Below are positions 3,958 through 19,112 of a DNA stretch of 51,808 nucleotides, piece by piece (the first letter of the stretch is position 1; every line of letters starts with the position of its first letter). Source of the DNA: a virus; the IMG/VR virus record IMGVR_UViG_3300030107_003389, positions 1 to 51,808 of that record; one strand, 5' to 3'. The notes under the pieces were generated by a model that had not been told where the DNA came from, ran no database searches, and saw only the letters and a list, made by a program, of their open reading frames with translations. Position numbers and translations under genes: made by a program.

Positions 3958-5519
3958 ATTTTTAATCCTGTCATCCAATTTATTTTTGTTTTAGTATAAG
4001 TAGGCATATCATCAGGTGTTTGATAGTCGTCATTTTGAATAACTCCACTTCTTGGTGGCTTAGCAAAAAAGTCAGCATAATACAATCCATCAAGCAAATC
4101 GTCGTGTCTTCCTTTTGGAAATTCAAACAATTCATCTATAAGTTCTGTATGTTCTTTACGAACAAATAGTTTCTTACTATTTACAATACTTCCTAAAGAC
4201 ATTTCTAATCTATCTTCTTTTTTAATACCATGAGGAGGTTTAACTCCCTTGTTAATACCAGTTAATAGTCTTTTTTCTTTTCTAGCCATTCTTTCTAACA
4301 TGTCTCTTACCATTTCCTGAGCACCTACCGTTTCAACAGAACATCTTCTTATAGGAGCATATTTATTTGCTATTTTCAATATTTCTGCAGGCATATCAAA
4401 TGCTGGTATCTTTTCACGATAATAATCAATAACATATCTATTTTTATTACTATCAATACCCATGACCATAATTACTTGATAGTCAGACTTGTTTGTAGCT
4501 GTATGTGCTAAATCAACTCCTATATATGTGTAAATAGGTATCATTTCTTCTTTATTCTTTAAATAACTAAATTGTCCATCTGTAAAAAATTCGTAATTAT
4601 GATATTGAACTCTTTCCATTTGGAAAGTTGCAGAAGCAGCATCTCTAGCATCGTTCATATATTCTTGAGCAAATTTGTCTATTTTACCTGCTTCAATAAA
4701 TTCTTGTTTTTTCTGTTCTAGCTTTTTTAAAGGAAACTGTTCTTTCCAAACAGCTTTTCCATCTTCTATAGCTCTAATAAATGTTACTCCCCAAGGATAT
4801 GATTTATTATTTTTCTTAGCATCGTGATAACCATCGCATACATTTTGCAAGAATGCATCGTAGTGAACAATAGTTCCAGATAGCCATATCCAACCTTCAT
4901 TTCCAGGAGTTTCTTCTAAAGCAGGATATACAGTAGATACAATCCATTGTTTAATCTCATCTCTTCTTTCTGCTGTTTTTGTATTTAACTCAGATTCAAA
5001 GTCGTCAAGTATAATTCCTGTGTATCTTACATCTACCTCAGCACGACCTCTAAGTCTTTGTGAAGTACCCTTAGCAATAATACGATGACCTTTATTTGTT
5101 ACTAAGTCTTTTTCTGTCCATCTTTTACCAGTATCAGCTCCACACATATTTCCAAAATAATACTTAATAGCATGATTATTTTCTAAATGGGAACGAATAT
5201 ACTTTAAGTGGTCAATAGATTGTCCTTGTTCTTCTGCAACCCAAGCCATAAACATAGCCTGGTCTTGTGGAGTAAAACAAAGTCTGTGCATAATTGCAGC
5301 TTTCATTAATACAGATTTTCCAAAACCACGAGGCAAAACATTACAAATACGAGCCCCTGGTTTTGTACTAATTAATTTTTTACCTAAGTCATAATGAAAA
5401 GGAGGGGAAGCCGATTTATGTAAAAAATCATTTGGTAAAAATAACTTACCAAACAGTATTAAATCTTTAGATGCTTTATGTAAAAGAATCTCTTTATCTG
5501 ATAAACTAAGCTTCTCCAT
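3954..5519 (-). CDS. terL: Terminase large subunit (TerL)
   Basis: Packaging motor of about 521 residues with an N-terminal ATPase and C-terminal nuclease. Walker A is PRGFGKS near residues 63-69, Walker B is TGIILDDFES, and a coupling motif appears in WIWLSGTIVHYDAF. The RNase H-like nuclease shows YIGVDLAHTATNKSDY and a closing HDDLLDGLYYA. It cuts and pumps concatemeric DNA; circular permutation of the contig agrees with headful cutting. The open frame extends to a TTG at 5549, but ATG 5519 at the end of the zinc-protein gene is the more likely start. Confidence 0.93.
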   Translation of the reverse strand: MEKLSLSDKEILLHKASKDLILFGKLFLPNDFLHKSASPPFHYDLGKKLISTKPGARICNVLPRGFGKSVLMKAAIMHRLCFTPQDQAMFMAWVAEEQGQSIDHLKYIRSHLENNHAIKYYFGNMCGADTGKRWTEKDLVTNKGHRIIAKGTSQRLRGRAEVDVRYTGIILDDFESELNTKTAERRDEIKQWIVSTVYPALEETPGNEGWIWLSGTIVHYDAFLQNVCDGYHDAKKNNKSYPWGVTFIRAIEDGKAVWKEQFPLKKLEQKKQEFIEAGKIDKFAQEYMNDARDAASATFQMERVQYHNYEFFTDGQFSYLKNKEEMIPIYTYIGVDLAHTATNKSDYQVIMVMGIDSNKNRYVIDYYREKIPAFDMPAEILKIANKYAPIRRCSVETVGAQEMVRDMLERMARKEKRLLTGINKGVKPPHGIKKEDRLEMSLGSIVNSKKLFVRKEHTELIDELFEFPKGRHDDLLDGLYYADFFAKPPRSGVIQNDDYQTPDDMPTYTKTKINWMTGLKI

Positions 5520-5727
5520 ACTCCAAAATAAAGTTTTTATTAACTCCAACCAAATTCATATTTTCATCATAAATAGAAAAACAACTTTTACAAACATGGC
5601 TTTGTAATGGTATCTCATACATTTCATTTAAGAAATAATCAAATACTGGTACATGTGCAAGTGTTTTTTTAATCTCCGTCTGACATATCAGGCAGTTGTC
5701 TTGTTTGCGTCGCAATTTTTTTGACAT
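5506..5727 (-). CDS. Small zinc-binding protein between terminase subunits
   Basis: Protein of 73 residues with two CxxC knuckles (CLIC near residue 13 and CKSC near residue 46), probably one zinc site. It begins inside the 3' end of the small terminase gene behind a strong AAGGAGG site and ends inside the start of TerL. The tight nesting implies co-translation and perhaps a role in packaging. I do not recognise the family. Confidence 0.7.
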   Translation of the reverse strand: MSKKLRRKQDNCLICQTEIKKTLAHVPVFDYFLNEMYEIPLQSHVCKSCFSIYDENMNLVGVNKNFILEYGEA

Positions 5728-8154: not shown

Positions 8155-8171
8155 CTAGTTAGTCTAACTAG
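8155..8171. promoter_or_regulatory. Operator-like palindrome, shared with 18956-18972
   Basis: CTAGTTAG-T-CTAACTAG, perfect 8-bp arms. Its inner 15 bases (TAGTTAGTCTAACTA) are identical to the palindrome at the start of the second early promoter. GTTAG is repeated again at 8171, 8175 and 8184. Confidence 0.6.
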
Positions 8172-8690
8172 TTAGTTAGTATAGTTAGCGAAATCCCTAA
8201 GTCCTTATATATCACGACTTAGACACAATACCCATTCTAAAAAAATAGCCCAAGTATGTGTGCTCTTCTTTTTTTTGCATGATACCCCCCCCCTGACTTT
8301 GTTATAGGATTGAACTTTTTAGTTGAAATTCGCCCTAAGTGTTGATATTGTTGAACTTAGAGCCGAGCCTTAAAAGTGAGCCGATTAGTGCTCAGACTAT
8401 ATTTTTTGAGCACTTTTCGAGCCCTCCAAATCATCCAAATCATCAAATTAGCCCTCCTGAGCACCCTTACTTTACCGACGATAAAGCCAAATAATCCTTG
8501 CTTGTTGCTCCTCGTATATATAAGTTTGTTTAGTTGGAGGTAAACCCTCGACACCTCCGACGACACAATAAGAGTTCGAGGAAAGAATAGAGAGAAAAAC
8601 ATGAATAAGACACTTTTAGCGTCAGAAATACCGACGGAGAGCACAAGTTCTCCGATAGAGAAACTAAACATCCTAAGAGGAGGATATAAC

Positions 8691-9771: not shown

Positions 9772-9823
9772 TTGCTACCATCAAAGATGGGAGCAAAAGT
9801 TAAAAGGGCTCAGTAGTAGTGCT

Positions 9824-9873
9824 CATGTTTAATCATATCTCTTTACTTTGTTTTTAGAGATATGATAAACATG
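9824..9873 (+). other. 18-bp hairpin before a short leader frame
   Basis: CATGTTT/AAACATG and ATCATATCTCT/AGAGATATGAT form an 18-bp stem with one bulged A (9831) and a 13-base T-rich loop (9843-9855). The 3' arm contains the ATG of the leader peptide at 9871, so folding would hide that start. Confidence 0.75.
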
Positions 9874-9921
9874 AAAACACTTAAAGCCGAGCAAAATCAA
9901 CCACTTATGGAGGACAAATAG
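9871..9921 (+). CDS. Possible 16-residue leader peptide
   Basis: MKTLKAEQNQPLMEDK, stop, one base, then the next gene's ATG. Its last codons GAG GAC AAA TAG are part of the conserved initiation block GGAGGACAAATARC found at three genes. A comparable mini-frame precedes 12051 but not 14957. The conserved item may therefore be the ribosome site, not the peptide. No SD is evident for this frame. Confidence 0.35.
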   Translation: MKTLKAEQNQPLMEDK

Positions 9922-9922
9922 C

Positions 9923-10114
9923 ATGAGTAAAAAGTATTCTTACAATAGTTTCGCCGACTTTGGAAAGGCATATAAACGAGGAGAATTGGGTAAAGACTTC
10001 TCGAAAACTCTTGCCGACAACAAGAGAAAACAAGAAAGTAAAAAGATTGTTAATAAGATGTCGGCTATTAGCCAAAATACTAACGACATTTTAAAATTCA
10101 TGGGGAGGAGATAA
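9923..10114 (+). CDS. Small basic hypothetical protein
   Basis: Protein of 63 residues, Lys-rich (GKDFSKTLADNKRKQESKK), predicted helical, no Cys. It starts from the conserved GGAGGACAAATAGC site, nine bases from GGAGG to ATG. Family not recognised; the charge suggests nucleic-acid or protein binding. Confidence 0.6.
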   Translation: MSKKYSYNSFADFGKAYKRGELGKDFSKTLADNKRKQESKKIVNKMSAISQNTNDILKFMGRR

Positions 10115-11836: not shown

Positions 11837-11995
11837 ATGAGCACTTGGAATATATGTTGGCTATTCATAGGCTTACAATTCGCAGGGCTATTCCTTGGAG
11901 TAGCGACGGATATGGTGCACGAGTTTAACACGATTGCATATCCTACATTAGTGCTCATGTTTTTATTAATAATGCTCACTAAGTATTTAGTATGA
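11837..11995 (+). CDS. 52-residue protein with two membrane spans
   Basis: Two hydrophobic segments (ICWLFIGLQFAGLFLGV and YPTLVLMFLLIMLTKYL) with a short acidic link. GGAGGAG four bases before ATG. Its 3' end lies in the hairpin at 11968-12003. It could act as an early membrane effector such as superinfection exclusion; function unknown. Confidence 0.6.
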   Translation: MSTWNICWLFIGLQFAGLFLGVATDMVHEFNTIAYPTLVLMFLLIMLTKYLV

Positions 11996-12003
11996 GCATT
12001 ATT
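11968..12003 (+). other. 15-bp hairpin before the AAA+ gene
   Basis: AATAATGCTC plus ACTAA pairs with TTAGT plus GAGCATTATT, with a two-base bulge and a GTAT loop. It covers the stop codon of the preceding gene and is followed by an A-run, a mini-frame and the conserved initiation block. It may cut translation or transcription, or protect the 5' end of the downstream message. Confidence 0.7.
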
Positions 12004-12010
12004 AAAAAAC

Positions 12011-12049
12011 ATGAACAACAAAATTTCAACCAATTTGGAGGACAAATAG
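12011..12049 (+). CDS. Possible 12-residue leader peptide
   Basis: MNNKISTNLEDK, stop, one base, then ATG 12051. Its ending (EDK-stop) and the nucleotide block match the mini-frame at 9871. No clear SD of its own. Confidence 0.33.
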   Translation: MNNKISTNLEDK

Positions 12050-12050
12050 C

Positions 12051-13457
12051 ATGATTGTCGATAATAAATCAACTGAATTACAAAATCACGGAGGAACAGG
12101 CATGGAGAATAATATTCCGTCGGCTAATGAGATGTCGAACATGAAAGTAAAGTCGGAACTTCGCCCTATGATGAGAAAACTCGTCGATGTTTTACAAAAA
12201 GAGGGCTTAGCAAGTCGTAAAGATTGCTCAGATTACCGATACCAAATCAAAATGGGTAGCAAAAGTCAAATTATGGACTTAGCCAACAAGTTAAGTGAAC
12301 TATATGGAGATGCATTGGAAAATTTGCAACCTAATCAACCTAATCAACCTACACAACCTACACAAAAAGACGGCTCAGGCATAAAATTTAAGCCTCAGGG
12401 AAATGAAAAATCCGACGGAGATGATACTTCTTATGGAGGTAGAATAAATAATGTCGAGCAAAAAGTCGATGATTTAGCCGAAATGATAGCCAATGGGATG
12501 ATGCAAATTAAACCTAACGAGGTTAAAGATAATAACGGAGACGAATTAAAACACTTCCAATTCGATACCATAAAACTTATGTTGGAGGAGAATAAACAAG
12601 TGCTCTTAGTCGGAGATGCAGGTAGTGGTAAGACATACTTGGGTAAGCAATTAGCATCGGCATTGAATTGTGAGAATTTCCACTCGTTATCGCTTACCTC
12701 AGGGATGAGTGAGAGCCACATCACAGGTAGGATGAACATCGAGGGAACTTTCCTCACTCCTGAATTTATGCATATCGTCGAAAATGGAGGTTTAATTCTA
12801 CTCGACGAATTTGATAACGGAGATACTGATGTATTAGTCGGCTTAAATAGTTTATTAGCCAACGGCTTTATATCATGTCCTTTGAGAACAGGCAACGAAA
12901 TGGCAATTAGACACGAGGATTGTTATATTGTATGTAGTGCTAATACATGGGGTAATGCCAACTCAGGAAATATGTATGTGAGAAAACAACTCGACGGAGC
13001 AACTCTCGATAGATTTGTGTGCTCAAAGGTAGAAGTCGGAAATGATAGACGAATTACACATCGAATAATGGGCTTATCAGGAGATAATTGCGAAGTTCAG
13101 GAATATCCTGAATTAGAAATGCTATCGACATTAGAGAGACAAAATGCAGATTTACATGTCGGTAAATTAATGGAGATTTTCGATACCATAAAACAATATA
13201 CACTCAAACCTAACATGCAAATCAGACAAATGTGCTCGAATAGAGCCTATGAACAAGGTGCAAAATTAGTTAGACGAGGTATAACTCCTAACCAAGTGCT
13301 CAAACTATACCTACAAAATTGGACTGACGATGAATTAAAACGAATAGGTGTAGAGAGAGATAGAGCAAACGAGTTTTTCGGAGTAATATCGTATAATATT
13401 AATGAAAAAGAGTTCTTTAACGGAGTTAAAGACACACAAGGAGAGAACAATGAGTAG
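12051..13457 (+). CDS. MoxR/CobS-type AAA+ ATPase
   Basis: Protein of 468 residues. Residues 1-90 are a helical domain and 93-105 a Gln/Pro/Asn linker. The AAA+ core has Walker A GDAGSGKT (188-195), Walker B LILLDEFD (248-255) and a sensor-like IVCSANTWG. This is the MoxR/CobS style; marine phages often carry relatives labelled CobS. Such ATPases work with a VWA-type partner, and the next gene fits. The job is probably remodelling a protein or metal complex; the target is unknown. It starts at the shared GGAGGACAAATAGC site; ATG 12102 with GGAGGAAC is an alternative. Confidence 0.85.
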   Translation: MIVDNKSTELQNHGGTGMENNIPSANEMSNMKVKSELRPMMRKLVDVLQKEGLASRKDCSDYRYQIKMGSKSQIMDLANKLSELYGDALENLQPNQPNQPTQPTQKDGSGIKFKPQGNEKSDGDDTSYGGRINNVEQKVDDLAEMIANGMMQIKPNEVKDNNGDELKHFQFDTIKLMLEENKQVLLVGDAGSGKTYLGKQLASALNCENFHSLSLTSGMSESHITGRMNIEGTFLTPEFMHIVENGGLILLDEFDNGDTDVLVGLNSLLANGFISCPLRTGNEMAIRHEDCYIVCSANTWGNANSGNMYVRKQLDGATLDRFVCSKVEVGNDRRITHRIMGLSGDNCEVQEYPELEMLSTLERQNADLHVGKLMEIFDTIKQYTLKPNMQIRQMCSNRAYEQGAKLVRRGITPNQVLKLYLQNWTDDELKRIGVERDRANEFFGVISYNINEKEFFNGVKDTQGENNE

Positions 13458-14496
13458 AGGTAGTAGAGACGGATTTAGCCCTCAGGTAAATGATATTAAT
13501 CGCCCTTTGACGAGTAATCGCATAGTAAATGTATCACACAAGTTTCCAAATCTAAAAGATGTAGAAACTTCCTATGGGTATAATCCTACGGAGGTATATA
13601 ACTTTACCTATGGAAGTTTGAACGAGTTTATCGACGAATTAGTGTTCGATAGTTATAACGGAGACTATGATTGGTTTAATACTACTGGTTATCATAGTAG
13701 AAAGGGTAGGTATAGCGATTTTGAGACTACTCTCGACATAAATAGTAGACAAAAGATGCTCAAATGTATAAATCAGGGCTATACCTCTCCTAAACTTTGG
13801 GATGAATACATAACGAGGAAACAAGACATAATTGCCTCTCCTGAATTTGTTAATAAATTGGGCTCAATAGGTATTGATTGTCGTCGTAAAAGACAACGAG
13901 ATTTATCAGGCACTATCATAAACATTGACAAATACATGGGGGGAGAGGAGTGTATGGAGAGCATGAAAAGACAAAATAGCCAACGATGTATTAGGTTTTT
14001 TATCGATTATGCTCAGTCCTCAGGAGAGAACACAATGAGATTAACCAATAAAGTAATTATGGCAGTAGCAATATGTGAGAAAATTGAACAATTAGGGTTT
14101 GCTACCGAAATTTATTTCGGAGAAATTAGTCGCCCTACATTTAATAAGAGAACATCTTTTGAAAGCATGGGAAAGTTTAGTTGGGATAGCGACACTCATC
14201 CTATTACATGTTGGAAAATATTGGCTAAGCCCTCAGGAGTTAAAATCGACGAAACTTATCTATGCAACTATTCCTTGACTGGAATATTTAGAGATTTGTT
14301 TTTCGATTGGAGTAAAAATTGCTTAGCAACTACCGATAGTATCGGAACTCCTATGTATCACTTAATAAAACCAAGTGAAAATCAGGAGTTATACAAGCAG
14401 ATTAGCGATAGCGATATATACATCGGACACGGAGCAACATTTCAAACTCTCATAACAAATGTAGTAGGTTATGTAAATGAGGGCTCAGATGAATAA
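13450..14496 (+). CDS. Probable partner of the AAA+ ATPase (VWA/CobT-like position)
   Basis: Protein of 348 residues, starting eight bases inside the ATPase gene behind AAGGAGAG. The C-terminal half resembles a Rossmann-type VWA fold: strand IRFFIDYAQSSG, a helix with a long AICEKIEQLGFATEIYFG strand-helix pattern, and IYIGHGATFQTL at the end. A clear DxSxS metal site is not visible; SGEN may be a changed version. MoxR ATPases nearly always pair with VWA proteins, so the pair probably works as a unit. Family name uncertain; possibly DUF7192. Confidence 0.62.
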   Translation: MSRGSRDGFSPQVNDINRPLTSNRIVNVSHKFPNLKDVETSYGYNPTEVYNFTYGSLNEFIDELVFDSYNGDYDWFNTTGYHSRKGRYSDFETTLDINSRQKMLKCINQGYTSPKLWDEYITRKQDIIASPEFVNKLGSIGIDCRRKRQRDLSGTIINIDKYMGGEECMESMKRQNSQRCIRFFIDYAQSSGENTMRLTNKVIMAVAICEKIEQLGFATEIYFGEISRPTFNKRTSFESMGKFSWDSDTHPITCWKILAKPSGVKIDETYLCNYSLTGIFRDLFFDWSKNCLATTDSIGTPMYHLIKPSENQELYKQISDSDIYIGHGATFQTLITNVVGYVNEGSDE

Positions 14497-14899
14497 AAGA
14501 ACTCTTAAATTAACCATACCACAGGTAAATGTGTTCCACCATTTACCATGGGTATCGGTTAATATTAAGAAAGTGAGCACTTTTTTGAGCACTAATACTT
14601 ATTCTTTCTTTGCTTCGCTTGTGAAAACAAGCAAAGCAAGAATAAGCATAGAGGCATGTGTGTTAAATAATTTGCTCACACAAAAAGTGGTGAGTAAATT
14701 ATCGCATGATGCTCGTGTTATACTCACGAGGCTTTTATATGAATTTGTAAAGCATACATGCCGAAGTATACTTCGGCAAAGTATTGCTAACAAATCATAT
14801 ACTATTGAGCATCCCTTCGAGAGTTTATTTTTGGATATTAGTCCAAAAATAAAACAAGAATATACCGACAAACGAAAATCTATTATTATTATTATTTAA
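14489..14899 (+). CDS. Hypothetical frame running through the hairpin array
   Basis: An open frame of 136 codons from ATG 14489, overlapping the preceding stop, to the last hairpin. Its length in such AT-rich DNA is unlikely by chance, but composition is odd (Ser, Ile and Lys rich, ending in five Ile). It has no good SD, and a 90-codon frame is open on the opposite strand because the DNA is palindromic. It may be a real basic protein whose message is highly folded, or no gene at all. Confidence 0.38.
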   Translation: MNKRTLKLTIPQVNVFHHLPWVSVNIKKVSTFLSTNTYSFFASLVKTSKARISIEACVLNNLLTQKVVSKLSHDARVILTRLLYEFVKHTCRSILRQSIANKSYTIEHPFESLFLDISPKIKQEYTDKRKSIIIII

Positions 14900-14931
14900 T
14901 TATTTATGTTTTATAAATAATAATAATAATA
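14510..14931 (+). other. Array of consecutive hairpins
   Basis: Seven stems in 420 bases. They are: 14510-14562 (TTAACC/GGTTAA, ATACC/GGTAT, inner GGTAAATG/CATTTACC); 14598-14646 (outer 9 bp, GAAA loop); 14667-14702 (13 bp, A-rich loop); 14712-14730 (CTCGTG/CACGAG); and 14737-14800 (long rod with perfect core TGCCGAAGTATACTTCGGCA at 14759-14778). The last two are 14824-14853 (12 perfect bp) and 14881-14931 (18 perfect bp of TTA/TAA triplets). The stems differ in sequence, so this is not a simple repeat array. The last stem lies just before an SD. Confidence 0.8.
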
Positions 14932-14956
14932 AAAACCTTTTAGGAGGACAAATAAC

Positions 14957-15229
14957 ATGGCGAAATTTAGAATATCAATATCCGTTCCAATAGATTGGAA
15001 CATAGATGAGTTGCCAAGTGATTACACATGGGAAACTGATATAGAGGCAGACAACGAGGATGATGCCTATGATAAAGGCTACGAGGAAGTCGAGGATAGT
15101 CTCGATGTAAGTAGTGTTTATGATGAACTATACGAGGAAATGCATAATGCTTGTATATATTTAGACGGACAATACGATTGTGATTTTACTGAGTATGTAG
15201 AAGTAAGAGAAATCAAGGAGAAAAAATGA
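14957..15229 (+). CDS. Hypothetical very acidic protein
   Basis: Protein of 90 residues with about one third Asp/Glu (ETDIEADNEDDAYDKGYEEV), short beta-like start (FRISISVPIDW). Third gene to use the GGAGGACAAATARCATG site. Possibly a DNA-mimic type early inhibitor; that is inference from charge only. Confidence 0.6.
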   Translation: MAKFRISISVPIDWNIDELPSDYTWETDIEADNEDDAYDKGYEEVEDSLDVSSVYDELYEEMHNACIYLDGQYDCDFTEYVEVREIKEKK

Positions 15230-15420
15230 GATTAACCGAAAAAGAATTGACACAATTACACGAATTGTTAGACAAGGCATGTGTTCTTTGGCAATACTAT
15301 GAAAAAGAACATGTAGATATTAATGATGAAATGTCTGACGATGAGTGGGAAAGTTTTGTCGATGAAAAACAAGATGCTTTTGCTATTGCTTGTGAAAGTG
15401 CATTGGAGGATATACAATGA
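15226..15420 (+). CDS. Small acidic helical protein
   Basis: Protein of 64 residues, helical and acidic, coupled by ATGA overlap with the gene before and the gene after; the upstream AAGGAGAAAAA serves as SD. Family not recognised. Confidence 0.6.
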   Translation: MRLTEKELTQLHELLDKACVLWQYYEKEHVDINDEMSDDEWESFVDEKQDAFAIACESALEDIQ

Positions 15421-15557
15421 GACATTACTGGTATGATGCAGATGCAGATATAATGTATGTAGCATGTTTACAATGGCATGATTTGTTAATAATGTTAGTA
15501 TTACCAATTATGTGTTGGGAATTATGTAAATGGTTAAAAAGGACATTAAAGCCGTGA
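15417..15557 (+). CDS. 46-residue single-span membrane protein
   Basis: A His/Tyr/Asp-rich start (RHYWYDADADIMY), one hydrophobic segment (HDLLIMLVLPIMCW) and a basic tail (CKWLKRTLKP), so N-out, C-in by the positive-inside rule. It begins by ATGA overlap and overlaps the next gene by 28 bases. Confidence 0.5.
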   Translation: MRHYWYDADADIMYVACLQWHDLLIMLVLPIMCWELCKWLKRTLKP

Positions 15558-15817
15558 AAAAAGAGGGTAAAATCGTTATTGATATGAACGAAATTAAAGG
15601 ACAATGTTGGGTGCTCAGTTCAATTCTGAAAAGAGAACTAAGCAACTCAGACTTATCTCCTGAATATATAGACGAGTTATTCTCAAAGATAAACAATGTT
15701 GAGGAGCAAGATTTAGAGCCTTATCTAATCTACATATTTTTGAGAGAACTCGGAGATGCATACATGTTAGACAATTTAACCGACGAACAAATAAAATATA
15801 TCGAGGAGAGAAAATGA
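15530..15817 (+). CDS. Hypothetical helical protein
   Basis: Protein of 95 residues with Lys-rich start (VKKDIKAVKKEGK) and helical, Leu/Glu-rich body. ATG 15530 lies within the membrane-protein gene; ATG 15584 is a shorter alternative, and neither has a strong site. Family unknown. Confidence 0.55.
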   Translation: MVKKDIKAVKKEGKIVIDMNEIKGQCWVLSSILKRELSNSDLSPEYIDELFSKINNVEEQDLEPYLIYIFLRELGDAYMLDNLTDEQIKYIEERK

Positions 15818-15864
15818 TTGGCATTATAGTATTTGTAATTATTTTTCCATATTGTTTGATATGA
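15814..15864 (+). CDS. 16-residue hydrophobic peptide frame
   Basis: MIGIIVFVIIFPYCLI, coupled to the gene before by ATGA and to the zinc-finger gene after by overlap. Could be a membrane micro-peptide or only a coupling frame. Confidence 0.3.
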   Translation: MIGIIVFVIIFPYCLI

Positions 15865-16025
15865 AAAATAATAAAAATACTAATAAGAATTGGAAGTGCT
15901 CAACTTGTGGCATGGAAAATTGGAGCAAGGCAACTGAGTGTTATCAATGTGATATGTTAAACTTTTTTGGAGTTAGAAAAAATCAAAAAGGACATTTGAC
16001 GATGTCTAAGGAGAAAAAATTATGA
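15861..16025 (+). CDS. RanBP2-type zinc finger protein
   Basis: Protein of 54 residues. Residues 11-30 fit the RanBP2 zinc-finger pattern exactly: W11-x-C13-x2-C16-x3-N20-x6-C27-x2-C30. In other proteins this fold binds single-stranded RNA or ubiquitin. The rest is basic (VRKNQKGHLTMSKEKK). It would suit an RNA-binding regulator of the hairpin-rich early messages. Stop and next ATG overlap as ATGA. Confidence 0.7.
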   Translation: MKNNKNTNKNWKCSTCGMENWSKATECYQCDMLNFFGVRKNQKGHLTMSKEKKL

Positions 16026-16517: not shown

Positions 16518-17466
16518 TGAACAACAAATTGGTGTTCTCAAAGGCGATTATCCTCATCCAATGGTAAACATGGATAAAGAGCACTTTGTGAAATATGCCG
16601 ATGCAATAATGAACATGAACGAGGATGAATATAACTCTAACTCTTGCGAACAAGAGAGAGAGTTTGAAAATCCTTATGCAACATATAAGTTAGTAGGCTC
16701 ACATGATTTGTGGGGAACTCATGCAGAAGTTAGGGTGCTCAAATGTAAGCAAAATCCTGATACATTTCTGAGTGATGAAAAGGCTCTACTTGTTAAGACA
16801 TTACTTAAAAGCGAGAGCACAAACGATGAGTGGAAATTTGGAACTATGGAGTGGTTTGATATTGCAAAGTTAATTGTAGAGGGTAAATTAGTAGAAACTC
16901 AACGAGATGTAGAGTGGAGTGTTTACGAGTTTAAAGGAGTTTTGCAGAAATGTATTTCTGAGGCAAAAGTTTCTCCTAAAAAGGCATATTACATGGTAAG
17001 CAGTCAATTATTTGAACTTTGTGATACGGCACAAAGGAATAATTTAAACTTTGACGAAGTTAGAGAGGTTGCTATAATGAGCACTAACGAGAAAAAAGAC
17101 GGAAAAGAACTAATTCAGAAATTAGTTAAGGACAAAGGCGAGGAATACATTGCATGGAAATACACGAGTAAGGATGAAACGATTAATCGCTTGTTAGAGG
17201 ATGTTTCTGAGATGTTCTGTGGCTCATCTACCGACGAGGTAGGTTTTATGCTTACATTTGTAGCAAGAGTGCTCGACAAAGTAAAGAGAGAGCAAGTGGA
17301 AAGTAGTCAAGATGAAAAGGAATTTAGAGCAAGAACAAAAGCGACTGGTGTGATAGAAATTATGTTCGCTCTCATGGAGGAAACAAAATCTCTCGACAAT
17401 AAAGTCGAAGAATTTATGACAATAACAAAAGGAGGAATAAATGGAAAAGACATCCCAAAAGCCTAA
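16507..17466 (+). CDS. Hypothetical protein, 319 residues
   Basis: Largest unknown of the early block. N-terminal alpha/beta part (HDLWGTHAEVRVLKCKQNP), then a long helical part with repeated Glu/Lys (LVKDKGEEYIAWKYTSKDE). No catalytic motif is visible. AAGGAGA lies upstream of ATG 16507, which overlaps the previous gene. Val-Leu pairs here are written GTG CTC, the region's over-used hexamer. Confidence 0.65.
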   Translation: MKNNEQQIGVLKGDYPHPMVNMDKEHFVKYADAIMNMNEDEYNSNSCEQEREFENPYATYKLVGSHDLWGTHAEVRVLKCKQNPDTFLSDEKALLVKTLLKSESTNDEWKFGTMEWFDIAKLIVEGKLVETQRDVEWSVYEFKGVLQKCISEAKVSPKKAYYMVSSQLFELCDTAQRNNLNFDEVREVAIMSTNEKKDGKELIQKLVKDKGEEYIAWKYTSKDETINRLLEDVSEMFCGSSTDEVGFMLTFVARVLDKVKREQVESSQDEKEFRARTKATGVIEIMFALMEETKSLDNKVEEFMTITKGGINGKDIPKA

Positions 17467-17779
17467 CGGAAAACTTATAGGCAAAGGTATGAAAACCATA
17501 AAAAGTAAAGGTTTTTCACAAGACGAGCAATTAGAGGCAAAAGAATTTGCTTTATCGTCTCGTGGACAACTTATTATGGCACAAGCACTAAGTGTAGCAA
17601 GTGCTATATTAAGAGATAAAGAGCCGTCAAATAGTGATGACATGGAATATATAGGGGAACGATTGTTCCAACCATACTGGATGATATATAGCAGTCAAGA
17701 CTATTTAGATGCTCAGGAGCAAGTTATTAAACTTGCTCAAACTGAAAATCAAAACCTAACCATTGATAAGGAGGATTAG
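17441..17779 (+). CDS. Hypothetical protein
   Basis: Protein of 112 residues; basic start (KPNGKLIGKGMKTIKSKGF), then helices (LIMAQALSVASAILRD, YIGERLFQPYWMIYSSQDYL). Strong AAAGGAGGAATAA site inside the preceding gene. Family not recognised. Confidence 0.65.
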   Translation: MEKTSQKPNGKLIGKGMKTIKSKGFSQDEQLEAKEFALSSRGQLIMAQALSVASAILRDKEPSNSDDMEYIGERLFQPYWMIYSSQDYLDAQEQVIKLAQTENQNLTIDKED

Positions 17780-18921: not shown

Positions 18922-18950
18922 TTGACTTTCGCTAACAAACTAATTAAACT
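18922..18950 (+). promoter_or_regulatory. Second sigma70-like early promoter
   Basis: TTGACT (18922-18927), 17 bases, TAAACT (18945-18950), preceded by a T-tract. Same spacing and near-identical boxes as 8101-8129. A 17-bp palindrome sits at the expected start point (about 18957). It should drive the small RNA candidate and the recombination-replication genes. Confidence 0.65.
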
Positions 18951-18955
18951 AACAT

Positions 18956-18972
18956 ATAGTTAGTCTAACTAT
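18956..18972. promoter_or_regulatory. Operator-like palindrome at promoter 2
   Basis: ATAGTTAG-T-CTAACTAT, perfect 8-bp arms. The inner 15 bases are identical to 8156-8170. ATCTAA-C-TTAGAT (18971-18983) follows directly. In reverse orientation 18972-18928 also resembles 8155-8194, ending in GTTAGCGAAA. Confidence 0.62.
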
Positions 18973-19112
18973 CTAACTTAGATAACTATACTTTTTTTAC
19001 CTTTATTCGAGTAAAAAGGCAAGGTTTTTAATTTTCCCTGAATTAGTTAGTTCTCATCAATTCATGTTATGCTATCAGGGTTTTCATGTTTTCCTTGCCT
19101 TTTTCTTTTTTA
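18957..19112 (+). ncRNA. Candidate phage small RNA of about 155 nt
   Basis: It would run from the predicted start of promoter 2 to a terminator-like end. AAAAAGGCAAGG (19013-19024) pairs perfectly with CCTTGCCTTTTT (19093-19104), followed by C and six T. Inside, CCCTGA (19036-19041) pairs with TCAGGG (19075-19080), in competition with TGAATT/AATTCA. No frame of note lies within. It could equally be an attenuator controlling read-through into the nuclease gene. Confidence 0.45.

Follow-up and report, generated by a model that had tools for sequence, protein, structure and literature searches.

A row of hairpins under one open reading frame in the plus-strand gene module of a 51.8-kb phage record

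Genomic setting and hairpins of the block

The stretch of DNA analysed here (the window) is the 51.8-kb virus record IMGVR_UViG_3300030107_003389 (51,808 nt) from an uncultivated phage, which encodes a P22-like portal, a large terminase, a DnaB helicase, a Sak-like annealing protein, an exonuclease and a MoxR-type ATPase. Genes located between approximately 8.6 and 25.8 kb, including those for DnaB, Sak and the exonuclease, are encoded on the plus strand, and the minus strand carries the structural genes. We infer that the plus-strand module featuring DnaB, Sak and the exonuclease represents the early genes. Within this module, a block of seven hairpins (H1 to H7) is placed between a DUF7192 gene and a small gene whose product is rich in D and E. 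The features of the locus are listed below, together with the differences observed in the one related contig described in the next section.

13402–14496, plus strand: upstream gene, 364 aa, DUF7192 (PF23822), which several phages of the family possess and which served as positional marker
14489–14899, plus strand: open reading frame (ORF) of 136 codons (140 codons if read from the in-frame earlier ATG at 14477)
14599–14871, minus strand: open frame of 90 codons
14509–14563, plus strand: H1, about 24 pairs interrupted by single mismatches or bulges; two-sided U-A to C-G change at the base in the relative
14598–14646, plus strand: H2, stem with one mismatch in up to 18 positions; unchanged in the relative
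14655–14708, plus strand: H3, long stem containing an internal loop of 6 nt; two-sided C-G to A-U change (14679/14690) and new loop in the relative
14712–14730, plus strand: H4, 6 pairs and a 7-nt loop; the relative differs in the loop only
14731–14810, plus strand: H5, long rod with its core at about 14736–14801
14824–14853, plus strand: H6, 12 perfect pairs and a 6-nt loop; 11 pairs and a re-registered tip in the relative
14881–14931, plus strand: H7, 18 perfect A-T pairs and a 15-nt loop, a leader-type hairpin; the contig of the relative terminates within it
14940–14959, plus strand: ribosome-site cassette TTAGGAGGACAAATAACATG of the next gene (14957–15229), common to the genes at 9923 and 12051

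The rod and the perfect stems of H6 and H7 named in the original prediction, as well as its 136-codon plus-strand and 90-codon minus-strand frames, were all recovered. Its 20-bp perfect palindrome at 14759–14778 is self-complementary, but the 20 bases amount to 10 complementary positions, which fold as 8 pairs and a 4-base loop. Likewise, not almost every base but about two thirds of the bases are paired (147 pairs in 443 nt). The tip of H5 reads GAAGTATACTTC in the window, whereas the relative carries the unrelated self-complementary tip ATCTAAGAT; moreover, H5 of the relative features a two-sided U-A to C-G change at 14744/14794 and insertions of one and two bases in opposite arms.

The ATG of the ORF at 14489 is located just 5' of the stop codon TAA of the upstream gene (14494–14496), so that the ORF overlaps this stop codon, and GAGG at 14480 represents a plausible ribosome site. 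The predicted pI of the ORF product is 10.1. The prediction of seven hairpins under one frame holds for H1 to H6, which lie within the ORF; H7, however, straddles its stop codon TAA (14897–14899), ends about 12 nt 5' of the ribosome site of the next gene and matches leader hairpins found before other genes. Three different genes of the window (9823–9925, 11955–12053 and 14881–14959) are preceded by GGAGGACAAATARCATG and, 5' of it, by a long and mostly AT-rich hairpin, the cassette GGAGGACAAATARCATG being common to the genes at 9923, 12051 and 14957. At the junction corresponding to that of H7, a hairpin is also located 5' of the ribosome site in the related phages L005, L012, L014 and L016, of which L014 and L016 are longer stretches of the L012 and L005 contigs. 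In L014 and L016, the gap following the DUF7192 gene measures 57–62 nt and contains a hairpin 5' of the next ribosome site. Based on the shared cassette and the hairpin at the same junction in related phages, we regard H7 as most likely a leader hairpin located at an old junction and H1 to H6, together with their ORF, as a lineage-specific addition.

Several further observations were made in this phage and its relatives. The products of two small genes 3' of the block (14957–15420) contain many D and E residues; among early phage proteins, small acidic ones frequently inhibit host enzymes that bind DNA. The hexamer GAGCAC/GTGCTC is the most over-represented one in this phage (59 occurrences versus 35 expected) and in L005, L008, L009, L010 and L012; it often lies in or near intergenic hairpins and is possibly a binding site. 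Most family members feature many hairpins in the region immediately 5' of the exonuclease gene (approximately 7600–8000 of L017, L018, L019, L026, L028, L033 and L034), and L009 features another row of stems, some with terminator-like T runs, at 5090–5610 upstream of its exonuclease gene. Moreover, a palindrome combined with TTGACA (CAAGTAATTTATTTACTACGTAAATTAATTTCTTGACA or close to it) is conserved 3' of the DUF7192 gene (L008 at about 2280–2325, L009 at 1655–1700, L010 at 795–840 and L028 at 4490–4530); this stretch, probably a promoter with operator, is absent at the corresponding place in the phage studied here. At 8160–8190 and 18940–18990 of the window, dense TTAGTTAG/CTAACTA repeats adjoin TTGACTT promoter-like sequences and resemble operator clusters. 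A homologous gene pair (52% identity), located at 17441–17779 of the window and 4008–4271 of L010, lies in strongly folded 400-nt segments in both phages.

Folding, reading frame and the one relative

The region 14489–14956 folds at −146.3 kcal/mol compared to −81.0 ± 6.0 kcal/mol for 100 dinucleotide shuffles (z −10.8), none of which was as low, and hence far below shuffled controls as the original prediction required. Among 734 segments of 400 nt from this phage and five relatives, 14401–14800 showed the largest folding excess (−47 kcal/mol). The excess persisted against codon-order shuffles and synonymous-codon shuffles of the ORF (for the latter, −131 versus −79.5 kcal/mol, z −8.3); the protein sequence therefore does not explain the fold. 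The plus-strand module is overall somewhat more folded than the remainder of the window (mean z −1.4 versus −0.7), and the hairpin block lies far beyond this background. In the whole window, only five long near-perfect hairpins were found, three of them directly before the ribosome sites of the genes at 9923, 12051 and 14957. The minus strand folds equally strongly, and G-U pairs account for approximately 5–7% of all pairs. Since both strands fold alike, the energy does not distinguish between the two strands, or between RNA and DNA, as the relevant form, and together with the few G-U pairs this does not specifically single out a role at the RNA level.

The openness of the 136-codon frame was reproduced in none of 20,000 dinucleotide shuffles and in one of 60,000 structure-preserving shuffles, and is thus expected neither by chance nor as a by-product of the stems. 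Codon usage fails as an argument for coding, as the ORF's own frame (score of −0.12) is not preferred over another frame (−0.11); the true frame scored best in each of the 27 genes used for comparison. An AlphaFold model of the product reached a pLDDT of 37, which is uninformative because a single sequence served as input.

One relative was identified in the collections searched, namely contig IMGVR_UViG_3300030098_002812, whose flanking genes show 97–99% nucleotide identity. Its hairpin block is about 90% identical, with indels, one of which corresponds to an extra hairpin on the 5' side, and folds at −141 kcal/mol (z −10.8). The compensatory changes sought in this relative amount to three two-sided pairs among the 118 common pairs determined by RNAalifold for this one pair of sequences. 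The core of the relative reaches −121.8 kcal/mol, compared to −97.4 ± 7.2 kcal/mol when the same substitutions and indels were placed randomly on the core of the window; one of 1000 such placements equalled the relative, and none of 350 shifted change patterns reached its fold.

The relative likewise has an open frame that begins in the same start region and terminates at the same stop codon, even with insertions of 22, 1 and 2 bases and deletions of 1 and 3 bases. These indels cancel, leaving the local frame shifted in two stretches; for comparison, 77 of 20,000 randomly mutated copies kept an open frame. The original prediction had allowed for relatives that keep the frame and lose the stems; the one found keeps both. 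Among the changed codons of the ORF, 4 are synonymous and 13 nonsynonymous, with 20% synonymous changes expected at random, and purifying selection on its amino acids was not seen in this comparison (4 of 17 synonymous); for the DUF7192 gene, the same comparison yielded 8 synonymous and 9 nonsynonymous changes. Openness and stems thus persist, and the residues do not. With regard to coding genes in general, the ORF is open for longer than expected by chance and kept in the relative, and it shows neither the codon usage nor the purifying selection of such genes. As this result represents one pair of sequences, selection is not separable from a mutational process copying one arm onto the other.

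Searches and rejected assignments

No relatives of the ORF were detected in Rfam, Pfam, PHROGs, NCBIfam or PDB, apart from one NCBIfam match far below the cut-off, and none in bacterial and archaeal genome contigs. Scans of IMG/VR with the ORF, the two-sequence ORF alignment and two DNA patterns retrieved only contig 3300030098_002812. Phage records contained nothing resembling 13400–15900, and plasmid records nothing resembling the array. Searched over their full records, 25 family members at greater distance lack the ORF, although many of these records may be fragments. Six aligned DUF7192 proteins proved too diverse to serve as search query.

At curated (gathering) cut-offs, Rfam yielded no match over the whole window, GOLLD and ROOL included, and a permissive search of the region returned only hairpin-like sub-threshold miRNA and RUF4 matches. 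GOLLD and ROOL are large structured RNAs that are sometimes phage-borne (PMC12286853) and resemble the block in this respect; however, the block lacks an Rfam match, consists of independent hairpins instead of one ornate fold and overlaps an open frame. An assignment as intrinsic terminator, for which a G+C stem with a T run 3' of it was sought, was discarded, since two weak matches near 14712–14778 compare to 1.1 expected by chance and H2, H6 and H7 have none. A tRNA reading was also rejected. In agreement with the original prediction, the block is neither a CRISPR or tandem repeat array nor a simple repeat: no repeated unit or repeat family has copies in successive hairpins.

Possible roles of the block

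The folding excess and the open frame, each retained in one relative, and the repeated leader cassette were observed directly, and these data support a structured, translatable, fast-changing segment. Based on the fold below shuffles and the joint retention of stems and frame, two readings of the original prediction are compatible with the data, namely a structured RNA of the phage and a message controlled by its folding; its third reading, a decoy, is without specific support. We tentatively favour the interpretation that the block is a translated, highly structured segment of an early polycistronic message composed of two modules. Transcription of the block, its translation and every functional step are proposed here from sequence. 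The first module (14489–14899) would be a short gene specific to the lineage and fitted in between DUF7192 and the gene that follows, and its message would form six independent stems; stems and stop-free frame would be kept, in contrast to the amino acids and to parts of the sequence of the stems. Most likely, the stems would act in the RNA via pairing and not via their exact sequence, and they may protect the message or hinder the progress of ribosomes and nucleases along the early transcript. The second module, H7, would represent a leader hairpin directly 5' of the ribosome site of the next gene, as before the genes at 9923 and 12051, and may function as a processing or 5'-end-stabilising hairpin for that gene.

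The main rival, which we regard as possible though rather unlikely, is a mutational origin, according to which a young and weakly constrained ORF acquired its palindromes by polymerase template switching between inverted repeats, which makes and repairs them, the RNA being functionless; the copying of one arm from the other would account for near-perfect stems that change on both sides. As described for yeast genes, template switching homogenises the arms of inverted repeats and causes clustered nonsynonymous changes (PMC8604942). The near-neutral amino-acid change, the lineage-specific presence of the ORF, the clustering of multi-base changes and the gain or loss of a whole extra hairpin at the 5' end are consistent with such an origin. 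Strand-symmetric folding and the low share of G-U pairs also keep it alive, as they do for an element acting at the DNA level. However, judged by eye, the loop and tip changes do not represent loop inversions, which template switching also produces; moreover, a general process should mark other noncoding stretches, but three of the five long near-perfect hairpins occupy leader positions. Also improbable in our judgement is a gene under double selection to be both translatable and folded, with a drifting protein and rebuilt stems, which would work by shape, perhaps against an RNA-sensing system of the host.

The early mRNA of phage T7 possesses RNase III sites at intergenic hairpins and stabilising leader hairpins at 5' ends. 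By analogy, host RNase III might cut the stems of the block and thereby separate early messages, and we consider such a processing array quite improbable. Long paired rods at a gene junction and similar hairpins just 5' of the ribosome sites of other genes argue for it. H7 is a long stem at an early-operon gene junction, as T7-type RNase III sites are, and the likeness also fits the hairpins at 9832 and 11962, each directly before a ribosome site. Unlike T7, however, the block carries a further six consecutive stems within an open reading frame, where one hairpin per junction would be enough.

A decoy or trigger RNA, the shape of which would bind an RNA-sensing defence protein or nuclease of the host, appears very unlikely. 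It would agree with pairing being kept while the sequence changes, but no observation is specific to it. Its closest parallel is the cabRNA of staphylococcal phages, an approximately 400-nt phage RNA whose several hairpins extend across coding sequence and which activates a CBASS cyclase, such RNAs differing in sequence between phages (PMC10686824); cabRNA, however, derives from terS/terL and its binding to the cyclase was shown, whereas the block belongs to an orphan early ORF. Least probable of all is a DNA-level element, e.g., a single-strand replication or priming site folding once one strand becomes exposed: folding that is alike on both strands and pairs that are almost all Watson-Crick would suit it, but an open frame across H1 to H6 is unexpected, the block contains no repeated binding sites, and the family's other hairpin-rich noncoding region lies elsewhere, just upstream of the exonuclease gene.

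For the favoured translated and structured segment, dual-function RNAs such as RNAIII of S. aureus, a structured RNA also carrying a reading frame, provide a parallel, with the difference that the frame of the block spans nearly the whole structure and its peptide, like any target, is hypothetical. In single-stranded RNA phages, structured coding messages are normal, and we know of no described DNA-phage case in which stems and frame persist while the protein sequence drifts. As judged from a single pair of sequences, the retention of stems and frame together with near-neutral protein change is an unusual combination. If confirmed, it would offer a handle on phage-host conflict based on RNA shape, or a clear natural example of a gene born from palindromes that template switching produced.
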